From Candidatus Poseidoniaceae archaeon (lineage in GTDB: Archaea; Thermoplasmatota; Poseidoniia; Poseidoniales; Poseidoniaceae), in NCBI GenBank assembly GCA_949372875.1, contig CASIAW010000001.1:124001-188000 (forward strand): DNA of 64,000 nucleotides, read 5' to 3'. The notes under the pieces were generated by a model that searched no databases, was not told the DNA's origin, and worked only from the letters and a program-made list of their open reading frames with translations. The position numbers were made by a program, and so were the translations under genes. Positions 35,517-48,972 of this stretch are shown here, piece after piece; position 1 is the stretch's first letter, and each line of letters begins with the position of its first letter.

Positions 35517-38105
35517 ATGAACGGAACCAATGGCAATTCTCAAAACCCTTCAGATTCAAACGCTGTCTCGGATGCCGTAGCAGAATCCATGGCCGCAGCA
35601 CTCCGTTCGGCAGGTTTAGGGGATATGGTTGAACATGTCGAAGTAAAGCAAATGGGATATTCAGAAAATGTCTTGGAGCGAATAATTCAGCAACATTCAA
35701 TTTCCGACCGTGAAGGGTTCCTTACCTTTGCACATACGAATGATGAAGACGGAAACAACTACTTGCGAGAAGAGGAATTGCTGAATGCCGCGAAAGAATG
35801 GGTTGCTCGAATAAAGACTGAAGACGAGAAGAGAGAGAAAGAAAATTCAATCGAATTCCTCTTACAACTTGGTGAAGAATGTTCACGGAAGAATGACTCA
35901 AAAGGTGCATTGACCGCATTCAACAAAGCAATTGCTCTGGACCCTTCATGCGACATGGCCTGGTTTAACAGAGGTGTTTTACTCGAGGCTGAGCAAGATG
36001 CACGAGGTGCCCGGCAGGCATTCCAAATTTGTTTAGATATCAATCCAGATAATGCCCCTGCTACAGCGAACATAGCTACATTGCTTGAACGTATAGGTGA
36101 CGATGCTGCAGCTTACAAAATGGCGGTTCGCGCTCTTGAGTTCTTCCCTGGACACCCATTGTTACTCGACGTCAAAAACCGATGTGCAGAAAGTGGTGAA
36201 AATATCCCACTCGAATCCATGCCCATTCAATCGCCGCCACAAACATATGACGACAAGCACGTTGTGGAGGTCATGAAAGAAGTCGGTGTAACTGACAGAG
36301 ATGCTGTGCTAGCAGAAGCGAAGCATCATGATGATGACCAAAATGAGCACCTTGAATATCAAGAACTCAAGTCAGCTGCTGAGGTTGTTGCCGCAACGCA
36401 AGAGATTCAACAAGTCATACAGCAAGACGAAAAACCAGTAGTCAAAGAAATTATTCCTGTGGTAGACGAAATTATTCCAGAGGTAGAAGAAATTAAAGAA
36501 TTGCCAATAAATCTTGACCTTTTAGTCGAACAGGCAACACAAATGATTCGTTCAGGTGACGCTAAATCAGCGCTAGAATTACTAAGTCCACACCTCAAAA
36601 CAATAGGTGCTGAACACGCCGGTGCTTGGCGAATCGCTGGTGGAGCAATGGCGCGGTTAGAACTTGATGACCATGCGATTTCTGCACTTCAGCATGCTCA
36701 GTTACTGGACCCAAGTCAGGGGACTGGTTGGTTTAATCTTGGATCGATACATCAACGTAAAGGAAGTGATTCGGAAGCTGTTGATTGCTACATGAAAGCA
36801 ATGAATGTCCAAGCGGATTATCTCAAAGCAGCCCTCAAATGTAGTCAACTTTGCAATCAAATCGGTGATGTAGAGAATTATCTCCAGTCAACACGCAGGG
36901 TTCTTCAGATTGAACCAAATAATCCTTCAAAGCAAGAATTTATTCGAGTCTTGATTGAGCTTGCGGAGGGAGAAGCGCACGTATTAGAGTCAGTTCAGGG
37001 GTTGCCTCCAACACTACCTGAAGGCCCTCACCTGGCAAAAGAAGCCCTCGGGTATCTTGGCGAGGGTGAAACTGAATTCCATGCACGTGCCTATACGGCT
37101 GCTAAAGATGATGTCAAGGCAGTAACTATTTGGAAATCAATGATCAAAGTCGATGGTCAAAATCCGAACATCTGGAGAGGTCTAGCACGTTCACTCGAAG
37201 CTGCTGGCGATTTAGAAACCGCACAAAAATGTCATAGGAAAGCCGACCAACTCAGTGGAATTACTGCTGCTGAACCTACACAAGAGACTCCTGTGGAACC
37301 TGTAACAGCCCCAATAGTTCCAGCATCTCCTGCCATGGAACAAGTACAGATGCCGGTTGAACCCGCTCCGCTACCAGTCGAGCAAACTATGGTCCAGAGT
37401 GTCGAAACGGTAACTGATGTGCAAGAAGAACAAGCAGACTACTACATGAATGCACTTGGGTTGCAATCAAGTCCACAACCACAAACAGAACCGGTTCAAT
37501 CATCACAAGAGACAAACAATACATTACTTACTGACTCGGCAAAATTATTGGACAATCGTCCACCTCAAGAGATGAACCCGGTAGCAGCCCAACCGGTTGC
37601 ATCATCGTATGATTTGACACAAGCAGCACTACAAGCACAACAATTAGCATCCGCAACCATAGATACAGAGGTGGATTCAAGTTCTGTATCGAATCAAGAT
37701 GTCGCTTGGTATAACCAAGGTGTTGGATTGATTGAAGATGGTAAGTTCAGAGAAGCTTTGTCTTGCTTTGATCGTGCATTGCCCTCATTTTCGGGTGATG
37801 ATGAAATGCTTATCAGAATTTTAAACGGACGCGGTAATGCATACTACTATCTTGAAGACTATCCAAAATGTGTCGAGTCTTATCACCAGGCAATGCTCAT
37901 TCGCCCTGCAGAGGTTCGAGGAAATACCCTCTACAATATGGGTAGTGCGTATGCCGAAATGGAGCGATATCCAGATGCAATGAAGTGTTTTGAGCAAGCA
38001 ATCCCTAGAGGATTGGAGCCTGAAGAAGTCAAGCGAGCGAAGGAACAAATTCGACGATGTGGCATTCTTTTGAAAGAAGTTGAGCGGAAAAATAAGCGTC
38101 GATGA
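35517..38105 (+). CDS. TPR repeat protein with EF-hand-like segments
   Basis: An 862-residue soluble scaffold. After a Ser/Asn-rich start come an EF-hand-like loop (Asn-Asp-Glu-Asp-Gly-Asn-Asn-Tyr-Leu, near residue 75), TPR repeats at about 110-220, a second acidic EF-like stretch (Asp-Asp-Asp-Gln-Asn-Glu-His-Leu, near 265), TPRs at 340-470 and 510-580, a Pro/Gln/Thr-rich linker (580-720), and final TPRs at 730-855 with Trp-Tyr-Asn-Gln-Gly and Tyr-Asn-Met-Gly-Ser-Ala-Tyr. No signal peptide. TPRs bind partner proteins; the partner is unknown. The TPR assignment is firm, the EF-hand loops are partly degenerate. Confidence 0.85.
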   Translation: MNGTNGNSQNPSDSNAVSDAVAESMAAALRSAGLGDMVEHVEVKQMGYSENVLERIIQQHSISDREGFLTFAHTNDEDGNNYLREEELLNAAKEWVARIKTEDEKREKENSIEFLLQLGEECSRKNDSKGALTAFNKAIALDPSCDMAWFNRGVLLEAEQDARGARQAFQICLDINPDNAPATANIATLLERIGDDAAAYKMAVRALEFFPGHPLLLDVKNRCAESGENIPLESMPIQSPPQTYDDKHVVEVMKEVGVTDRDAVLAEAKHHDDDQNEHLEYQELKSAAEVVAATQEIQQVIQQDEKPVVKEIIPVVDEIIPEVEEIKELPINLDLLVEQATQMIRSGDAKSALELLSPHLKTIGAEHAGAWRIAGGAMARLELDDHAISALQHAQLLDPSQGTGWFNLGSIHQRKGSDSEAVDCYMKAMNVQADYLKAALKCSQLCNQIGDVENYLQSTRRVLQIEPNNPSKQEFIRVLIELAEGEAHVLESVQGLPPTLPEGPHLAKEALGYLGEGETEFHARAYTAAKDDVKAVTIWKSMIKVDGQNPNIWRGLARSLEAAGDLETAQKCHRKADQLSGITAAEPTQETPVEPVTAPIVPASPAMEQVQMPVEPAPLPVEQTMVQSVETVTDVQEEQADYYMNALGLQSSPQPQTEPVQSSQETNNTLLTDSAKLLDNRPPQEMNPVAAQPVASSYDLTQAALQAQQLASATIDTEVDSSSVSNQDVAWYNQGVGLIEDGKFREALSCFDRALPSFSGDDEMLIRILNGRGNAYYYLEDYPKCVESYHQAMLIRPAEVRGNTLYNMGSAYAEMERYPDAMKCFEQAIPRGLEPEEVKRAKEQIRRCGILLKEVERKNKRR

Positions 38106-38166
38106 AACGGCACTCAAACCGACAGTCAAAGGACAGGTTCATAGACAAGTGCCCTGTCTTCAATAC

Positions 38167-38547
38167 ATGGACTGCGGAACCTGCGAAACTTCTGGCCCTG
38201 TGCAAGTCATGACTCCTGAAGTCGTCAATGTCAATTTAACTATCTCTAATAAGGCACAGGAGATGTTAGGGGATGCCTTTGGCGATGACCGCTCAATGGC
38301 TCTTTTAGTCGGTGTATTGTCCGGCGGATGCTCTGGATACATGTATGACCTACAGATTGTTGAAGAAACAGATCAAAACTGCCAAGAAGTCAATATTGAT
38401 GGATTCCGAGTATTGGTCCCCAATGCTTCGAGTCATTTACTTGATGGAATTGAAATCGACTATGTCGATCGCCTAATGGGTGGTGGATTTAGAATTAACA
38501 ATCCAAATGCTGAATCCTCGTGTGGATGCGGCGAATCGTTCTCTTGA
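38167..38547 (+). CDS. A-type Fe-S carrier (IscA/ErpA family)
   Basis: About 126 residues. The core shows Leu-Thr-Ile-Ser-Asn-Lys-Ala, Gly-Gly-Cys-Ser-Gly-Tyr-Met-Tyr, Leu-Leu-Asp-Gly-Ile-Glu-Ile-Asp-Tyr-Val, Gly-Phe-Arg-Ile-Asn-Asn-Pro-Asn-Ala, and Ser-Cys-Gly-Cys-Gly-Glu-Ser-Phe, with all three conserved cluster-binding cysteines. It carries iron-sulfur clusters to target enzymes. The short N-terminal stretch Asp-Cys-Gly-Thr-Cys before the domain is unusual. Starts at 38209 (just before the domain) and TTG 38080 are also possible; none has a clear ribosome site. It precedes the ygfZ-like gene by nine bases. Confidence 0.9.
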   Translation: MDCGTCETSGPVQVMTPEVVNVNLTISNKAQEMLGDAFGDDRSMALLVGVLSGGCSGYMYDLQIVEETDQNCQEVNIDGFRVLVPNASSHLLDGIEIDYVDRLMGGGFRINNPNAESSCGCGESFS

Positions 38548-38556
38548 GGCTCAACT

Positions 38557-39267
38557 ATGCCTCGAGTGGCTTATGCTGATGCGGCACTTACTGTTTGGCA
38601 AGGAACTGATGCATTGCAGTTTATTGACGGCCTTTCGACGAATAAAGTTGTAGATTTGGCACAAGGTGAAATCTGTCGAACCGTATTTACAACAAGTCAA
38701 GCGAAAATTATCGATATAGTGACGGTCTTTCACATGGGTGAATTTCTCGCAGTATTGTCACACAAATCCAAACTTGAGAACTTACTACTACACGTCACAC
38801 CTCGAATACTCAATCAAGATGTATCTATTTCTGATGTAACATCCCGGAATGTGTTTGGAATTGAATATGGACGTCAAAATGAAAATATTGGTATTTTTCA
38901 ATCAATTGATGGAATCACATACGGGCACATCACGAGCAGCCTCTCTTTTCTCGTAGCTTCAATCAATGTAAAGTGCGATTTTGACGAGGTGGAAAAAGCA
39001 TTCCATCAATGGAGAATAGAAAACCTTGTACCTTGGAATGGCTACGAACTCACTGAAAAAAATCACCCACTTGCTTCAGGAGTGAATGAACTCGTGCACC
39101 CTCAGAAAGGATGCTATATCGGTCAAGAAGTGCTGGCAAGGATGATTTCACGTGGAAGACAAGGCAAGATGCTTGTTCGGATTAAAAACGATGACGTCGA
39201 GGAAAAGTTCATCACCACACGAGGAGAAACTACTTCGCTGGCTATCGTTCGCGTTCGGAATCAGTAA
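38557..39267 (+). CDS. ygfZ: YgfZ/IBA57-like folate-binding protein
   Basis: A 236-residue GcvT-fold protein. The signature Lys-Gly-Cys-Tyr-Ile-Gly-Gln-Glu (about residues 188-195) is diagnostic of YgfZ/IBA57, which uses tetrahydrofolate to help assemble or repair 4Fe-4S clusters. N-terminal Phe-Ile-Asp-Gly-Leu-Ser-Thr-Asn-Lys-Val also fits. It is short (about 236 versus 325 residues in E. coli), ending soon after the signature, as in many archaeal forms. It directly follows the IscA-like gene, matching the known ISCA-IBA57 partnership in mitochondria. It overlaps the convergent mdh gene by seven bases. Confidence 0.9.
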   Translation: MPRVAYADAALTVWQGTDALQFIDGLSTNKVVDLAQGEICRTVFTTSQAKIIDIVTVFHMGEFLAVLSHKSKLENLLLHVTPRILNQDVSISDVTSRNVFGIEYGRQNENIGIFQSIDGITYGHITSSLSFLVASINVKCDFDEVEKAFHQWRIENLVPWNGYELTEKNHPLASGVNELVHPQKGCYIGQEVLARMISRGRQGKMLVRIKNDDVEEKFITTRGETTSLAIVRVRNQ

Positions 39268-43312: not shown

Positions 43313-43331
43313 CATGCCCCATAGGGGCATG
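43313..43331 (+). terminator. Hairpin after pntB
   Basis: CATGCCCC-ATA-GGGGCATG is a perfect eight-base stem with a three-base loop, 23 bases after the pntB stop and 54 bases before the next gene. It could end the operon transcript or stabilise its 3' end. There is no T run after it, so a regulatory role for the downstream gene is also possible. Confidence 0.5.
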
Positions 43332-43384
43332 TGGAAAAGGAACGTTCAAAGGGCTGGGCATGGTGGAAACATTTGGGTGGAAGT

Positions 43385-44350
43385 ATGCTGTCACGCAATT
43401 CACGATTGTTAATCATCGGATTAATGGCTCTGCTCATGGTTGCGCCTGCATTTGCAATGCCAGGTGGCCCGCCTTGGAAGAATGGAGAAACTCTCGTCGT
43501 AGAGACCGGATGCAGTTGTCACGGTGATGGTGCACCATCAAACGATGTAGTCGTATCCATCTCCGGTGTTCCACGTGCTTACACAGTCGACGAATCCTAC
43601 AACTTCATAATTTCACTTCAACATAACTCAAACTCCGAAGGAGGGTACATGATTTGGGATTACAACATGGGTACATTATCACCCGGAGAAGGTTCACAAA
43701 TCGTAGAAGATGCTGGCAGTCCGACTGGCGGACTTTCACAATCAGCTGTAGGTAATGACTGGGAGATCACTTGGACTGCTCCAAGTTCTGATGTGGGTTC
43801 CATACCATTCCAACTTGTTGGAAATGCAGTCAACGGAAACGGTAATTTTGATGCGGGTGACACATGGAACATTCTTTCATTTTCCATTAGCCCGCCAGGA
43901 ACCGCAACAAACGACAACCCAGAGAACCTGACAATGAGGACAATTAGCGTTGGAGACTATGATGCACTGTTCGTGGCCGAAGAAGATCCAGAAGCGGTGG
44001 AGGCCGAACGTCAAGAAGAACTCGCCGACTTATTCTTCGATGAAGGTAATCTGTTCTACTTTGCAACACTCTCAATCATTATCGTTGCAGCAGTGATTCA
44101 AGGTGAATTCTATGAGCGCAAATTTGGCGGAGGGCCAGAGCACTTAGATCGCAGTTTAGCAATCCCGCAAGGTGTCCGGCGAAGTGCAGTTTCAGCAGCA
44201 ATGTTGATTCTCTTTGCTTGGGCAGTCGATGGCGGACAGCCATGGGAAGTCACCCTTACTCTCGGAATGTTGGCACTTTGGGCGATATTTGGCGTATACC
44301 GAACAATCGTTCAAGCACGTGCAGTTGCTCAACCCAAAGACATGGTTTGA
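43385..44350 (+). CDS. Exported choice-of-anchor-V-like protein with CSCH motif
   Basis: About 321 residues. A signal peptide (Leu-Leu-Ile-Ile-Gly-Leu-Met-Ala-Leu-Leu) ends near Ala-Phe-Ala. The mature part has Glu-Thr-Gly-Cys-Ser-Cys-His-Gly-Asp-Gly, resembling the CxxCH-containing start of choice-of-anchor V (Reeler-like) domains but with only one residue between the cysteines, then Ser-Gly-Val-Pro, and Trp-Thr-Ala-Pro-Ser-Ser near 165. After an acidic linker come three membrane helices (about 225-320). Heme or metal binding is possible, not shown. The ATG at 43385 has GGGTGG upstream; ATG 43331 is also in frame. The TatC fusion follows 35 bases later. Confidence 0.7.
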   Translation: MLSRNSRLLIIGLMALLMVAPAFAMPGGPPWKNGETLVVETGCSCHGDGAPSNDVVVSISGVPRAYTVDESYNFIISLQHNSNSEGGYMIWDYNMGTLSPGEGSQIVEDAGSPTGGLSQSAVGNDWEITWTAPSSDVGSIPFQLVGNAVNGNGNFDAGDTWNILSFSISPPGTATNDNPENLTMRTISVGDYDALFVAEEDPEAVEAERQEELADLFFDEGNLFYFATLSIIIVAAVIQGEFYERKFGGGPEHLDRSLAIPQGVRRSAVSAAMLILFAWAVDGGQPWEVTLTLGMLALWAIFGVYRTIVQARAVAQPKDMV

Positions 44351-44385: not shown

Positions 44386-45702
44386 ATGTCACTACAACTT
44401 GAACATGATTCATCGAGTCCTGTTCAAGAACATTTGAATGAATTAACGGCACGAGTGACCCTCATACTCTTCTTGGCGTCTTTGACGACAATTGCATGGC
44501 TCACTCAAGTTGATGCAATATTGGACCTCTTACTCGGGCACCTCAACCCGTGCGTGGATGACTGCCTCAACCTGTTTGACCCCGCTCGGTGGAGTGCCAT
44601 TCGTTGGATGACTGCGGCGATACTTGGAATCATTAGCGTCATGCCAATGGTTCTGTATCAGGTGTGGAAATTCTCTAAACCAGGATTGCTTCCTGCTGAA
44701 CGAAAATGGATGAAATACTGGTTCTTTACCGTAGCAGTGGGTATGCTCATCACCGTAGTCAGCACGATTGGTGTGCTTTTCCCCATGATGTTTGACACCG
44801 GTCACCAAACCCACGAATCAATGCAATTGGATGCTCGCTATGATGCTGTACAGATGTTATCGATTGTAATCGCAGTCATTTGGACAGAAATGATCGTCAC
44901 ATGTGCAATCTTAGCGATGATGCTTGCAGGGGTTTTCGGTATGCTCAATGAAGAAAGTGCTGATTGGTGGAGAACCAGAATCTATGGAATATCTCTACTC
45001 CTCCTGCTCGCATCATTACCTGAATTTGGGGGATTGGCAGTGTTCCTCGGAGCCATTTCAGTAGCCTTCATTGAACTGTGTTCTACCAAATGGCTACATG
45101 CACCTGTTCCACTGTTCATGGGTCACAGTTCGATTATGGATTCTGAAGGAGGTATTCGAAACGTCTTGTTGGTCGATTGTGCATGCAGCGGGGCGGCACT
45201 TCCAATCCCTCAACCTTTGAATTCTAAAATTCCTGTATTATCCGCATATTCCCTTTGTTCATCAAACTCTGAGCGCGATGCATTACTAGAGACGGCAATG
45301 CAACATCGATTAACTGACATCATCATCAGCGGATGTTCAAGTGAACCTCTGCCGAATTCATTCAAGTCCAATTGCCTCAAACTCGGATGTAATTTGAGAG
45401 GACTCGACCTGCTTCAAACTCAGTCGCACCGTACATTACCATCTCCGTTTAGCATTACAGAAATTGAATTAAAAATCGCGTCCCTGGTCGACCCATGGCC
45501 TTCTTCCAAGATACCTCAAAGAATATTTTCGATACTTGAGAACTCGAATGTGCGGGAACTGGTGATCGATACTCGGAGGATCAATGAATCATGGGGCATG
45601 CAAATGAAAACAGACCAAGTCTTGTTGACACTTGACGCTCAACATTCTTTACAATTGATGAAGGAAATTGAGCCGTTAGGGATAAAGACAACACTGTTGT
45701 AA
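44386..45702 (+). CDS. tatC: TatC translocase subunit with HdrA-like C-terminal domain
   Basis: A 438-residue protein. Residues 1-240 are TatC, the receptor of the twin-arginine export path: Gln-Glu-His-Leu-Asn-Glu-Leu at 14-20, Tyr-Gln-Val-Trp-Lys-Phe-Ser-Lys-Pro-Gly-Leu-Leu-Pro-Ala-Glu-Arg near 91-106, and six membrane helices. Residues 255-430 are an added soluble domain: Val-Asp-Cys265-Ala-Cys267, Leu-Cys291-Ser-Ser, Leu-Thr-Asp-Ile-Ile-Ile-Ser-Gly-Cys317-Ser, and Leu-Gly-Cys335-Asn-Leu. Cysteine spacing and strand order resemble the N-terminal region of heterodisulfide reductase subunit A. I recall no such fusion; the second assignment is inference. Its neighbours are exported proteins. 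Confidence 0.85.
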   Translation: MSLQLEHDSSSPVQEHLNELTARVTLILFLASLTTIAWLTQVDAILDLLLGHLNPCVDDCLNLFDPARWSAIRWMTAAILGIISVMPMVLYQVWKFSKPGLLPAERKWMKYWFFTVAVGMLITVVSTIGVLFPMMFDTGHQTHESMQLDARYDAVQMLSIVIAVIWTEMIVTCAILAMMLAGVFGMLNEESADWWRTRIYGISLLLLLASLPEFGGLAVFLGAISVAFIELCSTKWLHAPVPLFMGHSSIMDSEGGIRNVLLVDCACSGAALPIPQPLNSKIPVLSAYSLCSSNSERDALLETAMQHRLTDIIISGCSSEPLPNSFKSNCLKLGCNLRGLDLLQTQSHRTLPSPFSITEIELKIASLVDPWPSSKIPQRIFSILENSNVRELVIDTRRINESWGMQMKTDQVLLTLDAQHSLQLMKEIEPLGIKTTLL

Positions 45703-47859: not shown

Positions 47860-48972
47860 TTATGTTCTCCCAGGTAACCATCGCTGCATTTGCAAGTAGT
47901 GCCAAACATTTTTGCAATGAAGGGCACACAGCCATGTTTTGTTTACACCCTCTGAGAGCCGAATTGCAAGGCATGCTGCCTCCCAAGTCTCGGGTGCATA
48001 TTCTACGGGTTGAACGAGCCATGGAGCATGTGCATCACCAACAGGGGTAGCATAGACTCTCCAACGACTTCCAAATTTGAATCCCGGCCTCAATAATACA
48101 CCCCGGGACATCAAATCATCATATAGCTCGAGATGTGAAGGAACTGGCATAGCATTGAGTAAAGCATCAAACCACTCACCTTCTTCTTCACGTAAGTGGC
48201 GGCCTGAAAGATGCTCAACACCAATCGAATCCCATAGCCATTCTGTAACACCGGGAATGTACCAACCTGAATCGCGAGCGATACGCCGAGACCATAGTTC
48301 TGTGAGTTCTTGCCGTTGTTCGGAGGAAAAAGAATCCCACAGTTGTTGTTCACCATGTGGTTGTGCTAGGCCGAGTAAATACATCGTGACATCCATTTCC
48401 TCATCGATGACAAAAAACTCTGCAGCCATACCTTTTGAATTGACTGCGTTTGTCCATTCATGCATTTCCATCCAATCTATTTCATCTGTTGTCCAAGCCC
48501 ACCGGACGTGAGCAACAGGCGTTTCTTTGGAAAATGTTTGCTCGCGATTCCAACGTAAAGCCCATGTTGAATCAAGAACTTCCAAACCCCATTTCAAAGG
48601 GATATTTTCGACTGGAATAAGAATTTCACCACCACTACGTGCGGTGTCGAAAACCACGCAACGAGCGATGACATCAGAATCTTGAGAGACCGAATCGCGA
48701 AACCAACTCTCGCTCGGTAATGGAACGTGCCTGTGCCAATGGCAAAACAAAATTTCCTCGGAAGTGAGGCGAATACTCTCATCGCTTTGCATCATTCCGA
48801 GTCCACTTTTTTGATACAAACGAGACGAGAGCGGGGGGTCGATAAACCAGTTCCCATTACGCATCGTTGGAGGGTGAAGTGCCTGGGCCGGGGGGAGATT
48901 GGAAGTCAATGGTGTCCCCAATGGACGGGTTGTACGTTGACGCGGTGTGAACTTACGGTTCTGCCTCGCCAT
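47860..48972 (-). CDS. endA: tRNA-intron splicing endonuclease
   Basis: A 370-residue homodimer-type archaeal splicing endonuclease that cuts introns from pre-tRNA at bulge-helix-bulge sites. The catalytic triad is visible near the C-terminus: Tyr307 in Arg-Val-Tyr, His315 in Asp-Ala-His-Ala-Pro-Trp-Leu-Val, and Lys345 in Ser-Glu-Gly-Val-Asn-Lys. Arg-Gly-Val-Leu-Leu-Arg-Pro-Gly-Phe-Lys-Phe-Gly precedes them. The N-terminal half would be the degenerate pseudo-repeat typical of alpha-2 enzymes. The only tRNA in the window has no intron. It is divergent from the wHTH-TerB gene. Confidence 0.92.
   Translation of the reverse strand: MARQNRKFTPRQRTTRPLGTPLTSNLPPAQALHPPTMRNGNWFIDPPLSSRLYQKSGLGMMQSDESIRLTSEEILFCHWHRHVPLPSESWFRDSVSQDSDVIARCVVFDTARSGGEILIPVENIPLKWGLEVLDSTWALRWNREQTFSKETPVAHVRWAWTTDEIDWMEMHEWTNAVNSKGMAAEFFVIDEEMDVTMYLLGLAQPHGEQQLWDSFSSEQRQELTELWSRRIARDSGWYIPGVTEWLWDSIGVEHLSGRHLREEEGEWFDALLNAMPVPSHLELYDDLMSRGVLLRPGFKFGSRWRVYATPVGDAHAPWLVQPVEYAPETWEAACLAIRLSEGVNKTWLCALHCKNVWHYLQMQRWLPGRT

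Follow-up and report, generated by a model that had tools for sequence, protein, structure and literature searches.

A TatC protein of Poseidoniales archaea with a conserved, HdrA-like four-cysteine tail

Results

The tatC2 locus and its neighborhood

The window, that is, the whole 64,000-nucleotide stretch of DNA analyzed here, belongs to a genome of 2.16 Mb in 13 contigs, whose host is taken to be an archaeon of the order Poseidoniales (Marine Group II). It contains an open reading frame, designated tatC2, in which a TatC domain is followed by a tail of 187 residues (Table 1). Residues 15 to 204 of the predicted protein match PF00902 at 73.6 bits (Pfam cut-off, 25.1), which bears out the claim of an earlier note on this DNA that the frame includes a full TatC. 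A profile of 34 TatC2 relatives aligns with residues 4 to 237 of Escherichia coli TatC. The protein scores below the equivalog cut-offs of two NCBIfam models (TIGR00945, 56.5 versus 132.7; TIGR01912, 31.4 versus 192.6) and is therefore a divergent TatC by these models. Thus, TatC2 resembles TatC proteins (PF00902) in passing the Pfam cut-off and in its twin-arginine-pocket residues but differs from them in its divergence and in its HdrA-N-like C-terminal tail. A search with the TatC2 protein gave a match in 55 of 59 related genomes.

TABLE 1 Features of the tatC2 locus in the window
Feature	Position	Strand	Evidence
Upstream neighbor, choice-of-anchor V domain membrane protein with CxCH	43331..44350	+	NF041895, 71.8 bits (cut-off, 42)
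tatC2 open reading frame	44386-45702	+	ATG start, 438 aa, no internal stop
TatC domain of TatC2 (residues 1-245)	44386..45120	+	PF00902 match and alignment with E. coli TatC
Twin-arginine pocket, F96 to E105 (F94 and E103 in E. coli)	44671..44700	+	F and E in 56/56 TatC2 loci
HdrA-N-like four-cysteine domain (about residues 259-338)	45160..45399	+	hhalign with HdrA-N
C265-x-C267	45178..45186	+	C265 in 47/47 and C267 in 46/47 tailed loci
C291	45256..45258	+	47/47 tailed loci
C317	45334..45336	+	47/47 tailed loci
Less conserved C-terminal stretch (residues 351-438)	45436..45699	+	Missing from short tails

We compared 56 TatC2 loci, including that of the window (two of them, L003 and L032, are apparently identical in sequence). 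A protein with a CxCH motif is encoded upstream of tatC2 at 55 of these loci, with the two cysteines and the histidine each present in 53 of the 55, and it represents a possible partner of Tat2. Near tatC2, pntB was found at 52 of the 56 loci and an M6-type peptidase gene at 51, several of the misses being contig ends. The gene order around tatC2 is unchanged where the tail has been lost. Three families are referred to below: f1 and f2, which belong to the order of the host, and f3, which belongs to the same class. At two f3 TatC loci, none of the CxCH neighbor, pntB, and the M6-type peptidase gene was found. The earlier note had also suggested checking for tatA nearby; the sole tatA match found in the window genome (G000:C1:505640) is not close to tatC2.

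Two further features of the region were observed. An Fe-S biogenesis-type gene (PF01521) adjoins a GCV_T-domain gene at positions 38080 to 39267, about 5 kb upstream of the block of transhydrogenase and tatC2 genes. A tRNA intron endonuclease-domain gene (PF01974) lies at positions 47860 to 48972, past the M6 peptidase gene, and recurs there in many of the loci that extend so far.

Two TatC proteins, one of which keeps the signal-peptide pocket

According to PMC13323110, the signal peptide is bound by residues H12, E15, F94, Y100, and E103 of E. coli TatC. TatC2 of the window has H16, E19, F96, and E105 at these positions and a leucine at that of Y100. Across the 56 TatC2 sequences, the residues are kept in 55 (H), 49 (first E; D in 5), 56 (F), 8 (Y), and 56 (second E) cases.

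A PF00902 search of the window genome identified a second TatC, TatC1 (G000:C1:397181-397831; locus L169, G000:C1:396400-398700), in which the tail profile gave no match. By PF00902, 31 of 34 Poseidoniales genomes had two TatC proteins, 2 had one, and a single genome had none. None of 12 TatC1 sequences (10 from Poseidoniales and 2 from f3) has H, E, F, or E at the aligned pocket positions, in a loop that is hard to align; a scan with a loop motif agreed with the alignment, the motif being absent from all 12. In 12 of 12 sequences of this class, TatC1 appears to be pocketless, which is unusual for a TatC. TatC1 and TatC2 form separate clades in a tree. Because TatC2 keeps the phenylalanine and glutamate of the pocket and TatC1 is without them, TatC2 is likely to be the signal-peptide receptor, and the tail would sit on that receptor. 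By a strict pattern, no twin-arginine signals were found within the window.

Two f3 TatC proteins (L179 and L182) keep the loop motif and gave no match to the tail profile, a pattern consistent with the Poseidoniales line having gained the tail, with the tree position of both being unsure. At a locus of an f3 genome (L180; G061:C4:66700-69200), a short TatA-like frame, recognized by eye, lies beside TatC1 on the opposite strand.

Haloarchaea have two TatC proteins, TatCt and TatCo, of which TatCt is a tandem TatC. Two TatC paralogues likewise occur in single Poseidoniales genomes, but here one copy appears to be pocketless and the other carries a cysteine tail.

Conservation of the cysteine tail

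The fusion sought after the earlier note was recovered: the tail is present in frame at 47 of the 56 TatC2 loci, absent from 8, and cut by a contig end at 1 (L029), so that it is more than a product of chance or of assembly. Six cysteines had been highlighted in the tail, and all of them are present in the window protein (Cys265, Cys267, Cys291, Cys317, Cys330, and Cys335); the first four are conserved, but the last two are not, Cys330 being kept in 20 and Cys335 in 31 of the 47 tailed loci. Cys267 is replaced by serine in one locus (L006). When 46 tails were aligned, a single glycine, Cys265, Cys291, and Cys317 proved invariant, with Cys267 next, and the four cysteines are still conserved where identity to the tail of the window protein drops to 16%. 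A lack of cysteine conservation among relatives, named in the earlier note as a finding that would refute its reading, is thereby excluded. The part that aligns with HdrA covers about residues 259 to 338, and the final stretch of about 85 residues is separate and missing in many relatives. The four-cysteine domain thus represents the common core, since short tails stop shortly past Cys317.

A quick tree of 54 TatC2 sequences (46 tailed and 8 untailed) requires at least five changes of tail state, a count that is blind to direction (gain or loss). As one homologous tail occurs in both f1 and f2, repeated loss is the simpler reading, and the tail would therefore be dispensable in some lineages. 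These changes, together with the variability of the C-terminal stretch, could also be expected of a decaying fusion remnant without metal and with little function. Such a remnant is highly unlikely, given that the cysteines are kept in two families and that dN/dS of the four-cysteine part lies between 0.056 and 0.255 in those 9 of 13 pairs that gave finite estimates (the other 4 pairs are saturated at synonymous sites). For the C-terminal stretch, dN/dS ranges from 0.104 to 0.288 (7 pairs with a finite value).

No free-standing tail gene was found at E ≤ 0.01 in 20 Poseidoniales genomes without a tail match, and no relative was found in viral contigs. Outside the phylum, the search consisted of a close-relative scan, and the same fusion may therefore also occur elsewhere. 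In the titles and abstract openings searched, which covered few subscription journals, we found no description of a TatC fusion with an HdrA-type tail.

Homology of the tail to the N-terminal domain of HdrA

The tail is very probably homologous to the N-terminal domain of HdrA (HdrA-N). The HdrA-N profile was built from 24 of 33 segments from genomes of the same phylum, and it matches five solved HdrA sequences (e.g., 5odc_A, residues 5 to 130). Because the segments were picked with a CxCGxN pattern, the fixed CxCG of the HdrA-N alignment is partly a matter of choice. In hhalign comparisons, the tail profile scored 31.1 against HdrA-N (P = 5.4e-5) and 33.1 when an alignment of whole HdrA, cut to its first 128 columns, was used instead, with all four tail cysteines paired in register with the four cysteines of HdrA-N. 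As controls, 200 column shuffles of the tail scored 10.9 on average (SD, 1.9; maximum, 17.9), nine other HdrA windows scored 18.8 or less (the top one overlaps the N-terminal domain), and the TatC part scored 12.7. With the cysteine columns masked, the score (19.6 to 21.3) stayed above those of the shuffles in an unchanged register, and the cysteines and the remaining residues thus both contribute to the match.

The tail profile was also searched in six frames over 292 genomes of the phylum, of which 95 were matched at E ≤ 0.01 (61 Poseidoniales and 34 outside the order). Outside the order, the 20 best-scoring places (E, 6.3e-5 to 1.7e-3), which were located without the CxCGxN pattern, all lie inside HdrA-N domains (20/20). 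A likeness that had originally been noticed by eye was thus supported both by profile-profile comparison with controls and by a blind genome search. Relative to the N-terminal domain of HdrA (5odc chain A, about residues 5 to 130), the tail shares CxC, C, and C in register over about 78 columns but is without most of the NxREqCsWxH stretch of HdrA. It also comes after a TatC domain and is not followed by flavin or ferredoxin domains. A whole HdrA subunit was rejected as a description of the protein, which is without thioredoxin-reductase-like FAD or ferredoxin domains (Pfam and NCBIfam, E ≤ 1).

Searches against public models and structures gave little. Searched alone, the last 185 residues of the window protein matched no Pfam family at E ≤ 1, and nothing better than E = 0.07 was found for this tail in NCBIfam. 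Among the 46 tails, no HdrA family appeared in the Pfam matches, and the NCBIfam matches included HdrA2 in four tails (best value, 0.1) and hdrA_Methbact in one (4.4e-5). A short NCBIfam model, TrbK_RP4, matched 12 of the 46 tails (best value, 0.0066) and was taken for a chance match. Against PDB sequences, the tail profile gave 28 weak matches (best E, 0.39), none of them named HdrA at E ≤ 10. A structure predicted from four close sequences was of low confidence (pLDDT, 60.5 for the tail and 47.3 for the whole protein), and Foldseek searches with these poor tail models returned no match at E ≤ 0.001, with HdrA tying with unrelated folds.

The profiles of HdrA-N and of FlpD/MvhD, a [2Fe-2S] subunit (PF02662), resemble each other (score, 38.7), and FlpD is the other conceivable source of the tail. 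It matched 2 of the 46 tails (best E, 0.047), and the f1 tails alone separate the two sources poorly, since their scores with FlpD (23.8) and with HdrA-N (25.7) lie close. The f2 tails, in contrast, scored 35.6 with HdrA-N and 17.8 with FlpD; the whole tail profile scored 17.4 with FlpD, inside the shuffled range (maximum, 18.3), against 31.1 with HdrA-N; and none of the best 20 places outside the order lies in FlpD. PF02662 had no match on the window tail at E ≤ 1. The likeness to FlpD/MvhD is thus weak and found in single sequences, and we rejected this subunit as the source of the tail, a derivation from it instead of from HdrA-N being most improbable.

HdrA (HdrA2 model, E ≤ 1e-20) was detected in 76 of 145 genomes, with no Poseidoniales among the 76; a separate draw of equal size included 34 Poseidoniales. 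FlpD was sought in 77 genomes, 14 of them Poseidoniales, and was missing from these 14. Three other loci (L155, L156, and L164) include frames of 381 to 392 aa with HdrA-N and FlpD domains, which are too short for the usual flavin part of HdrA. HdrA-N thus appears to be used as a module elsewhere. Taken at the level of sequence, the tailed TatC2 is a real and conserved domain architecture, whose relation to HdrA is strongly supported.

Discussion

The C terminus of TatC lies in the cytoplasm, where signal peptides dock. The conservation of the tail cysteines suggests that they probably bind an iron-sulfur cluster, against which stands the serine that replaces one of the four in L006. The cluster would most likely be of the [4Fe-4S] type and would lie on the cytoplasmic side, close to where the signal peptide binds. 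Its presence or redox state might in turn change the interaction of TatC2 with signal peptides or with TatA, and export would then follow redox state or Fe-S supply. HdrA-N binds a [4Fe-4S] cluster of which one ligand is Cys197 of the other HdrA (PMC9012536), and an N-terminal iron-sulfur domain of HdrA is also named in PMC12054007. As the cluster of HdrA takes one ligand from a partner HdrA subunit, a specific possibility is that a ligand is given in trans by a neighboring Tat protein or by the cargo. The closest known relative of the tail domain holds an iron-sulfur cluster, and export may therefore be tied to redox state or iron-sulfur supply. That TatC2 has captured an HdrA N-terminal domain as its tail, and that the cluster of this domain links export to these conditions, has in our view a little less than an even chance of being correct.

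A role of the tail as a sensor or gate, considered by itself, is possible, at slightly lower odds. We prefer it because the tail is on the pocket-bearing copy, is an addition that some lineages have shed while keeping the receptor intact, and is accompanied by no other recognized part. Against it stand this dispensability in some lineages and the finding of no clear association between the tail and large Rieske proteins (frames of at least 200 aa), which were found in 17 of the 25 genomes with a tail and in 9 of the 20 without one, where the latter are genomes without a tail-profile match and include G046, in which TatC2 was not found. The main rival is a docking or assembly domain in which the cysteines would hold Fe-S or zinc as a structural metal; it would sense nothing but would bind a partner, be it TatC1, TatA, the CxCH neighbor, or a cargo chaperone. 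In its favor, the HdrA cluster is shared by two subunits, which makes the domain an interface there (PMC9012536), and the CxCH protein is encoded upstream of tatC2 at 55 of the 56 loci. This neighbor persists, however, where the tail is lost, and the docking role seems rather unlikely.

HdrA transfers electrons according to PMC12054007 and PMC9012536, and pntB accompanies 52 of the 56 TatC2 loci, both of which would suit a tail acting as an electron relay, with the HdrA-type cluster taking electrons from a cytoplasmic donor to the cargo or the membrane. However, neither HdrA nor FlpD turned up in the sampled Poseidoniales, and no Fe-S or flavin domain other than the four-cysteine one was recognized in the protein, which makes such a relay improbable.

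Returning to the sensor or gate, its fullest form casts TatC2 as an iron-sulfur receptor in which an HdrA-type cluster gates the export of folded proteins by redox state or Fe-S supply, with the pocketless TatC as its partner. We put this forward as tentative, the combination being less probable than either the redox link or the gate role taken singly.

The Tat machine exports folded proteins, many of which carry redox cofactors, and how it recognizes cargo that is ready is an open question, for which a receptor with an iron-sulfur-type domain would be a natural test case. The tail also indicates that the HdrA module occurs outside HdrA, in marine archaea whose sampled genomes gave no HdrA. 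In these archaea, roles may be split between two TatC proteins, one of which keeps the signal-peptide pocket.
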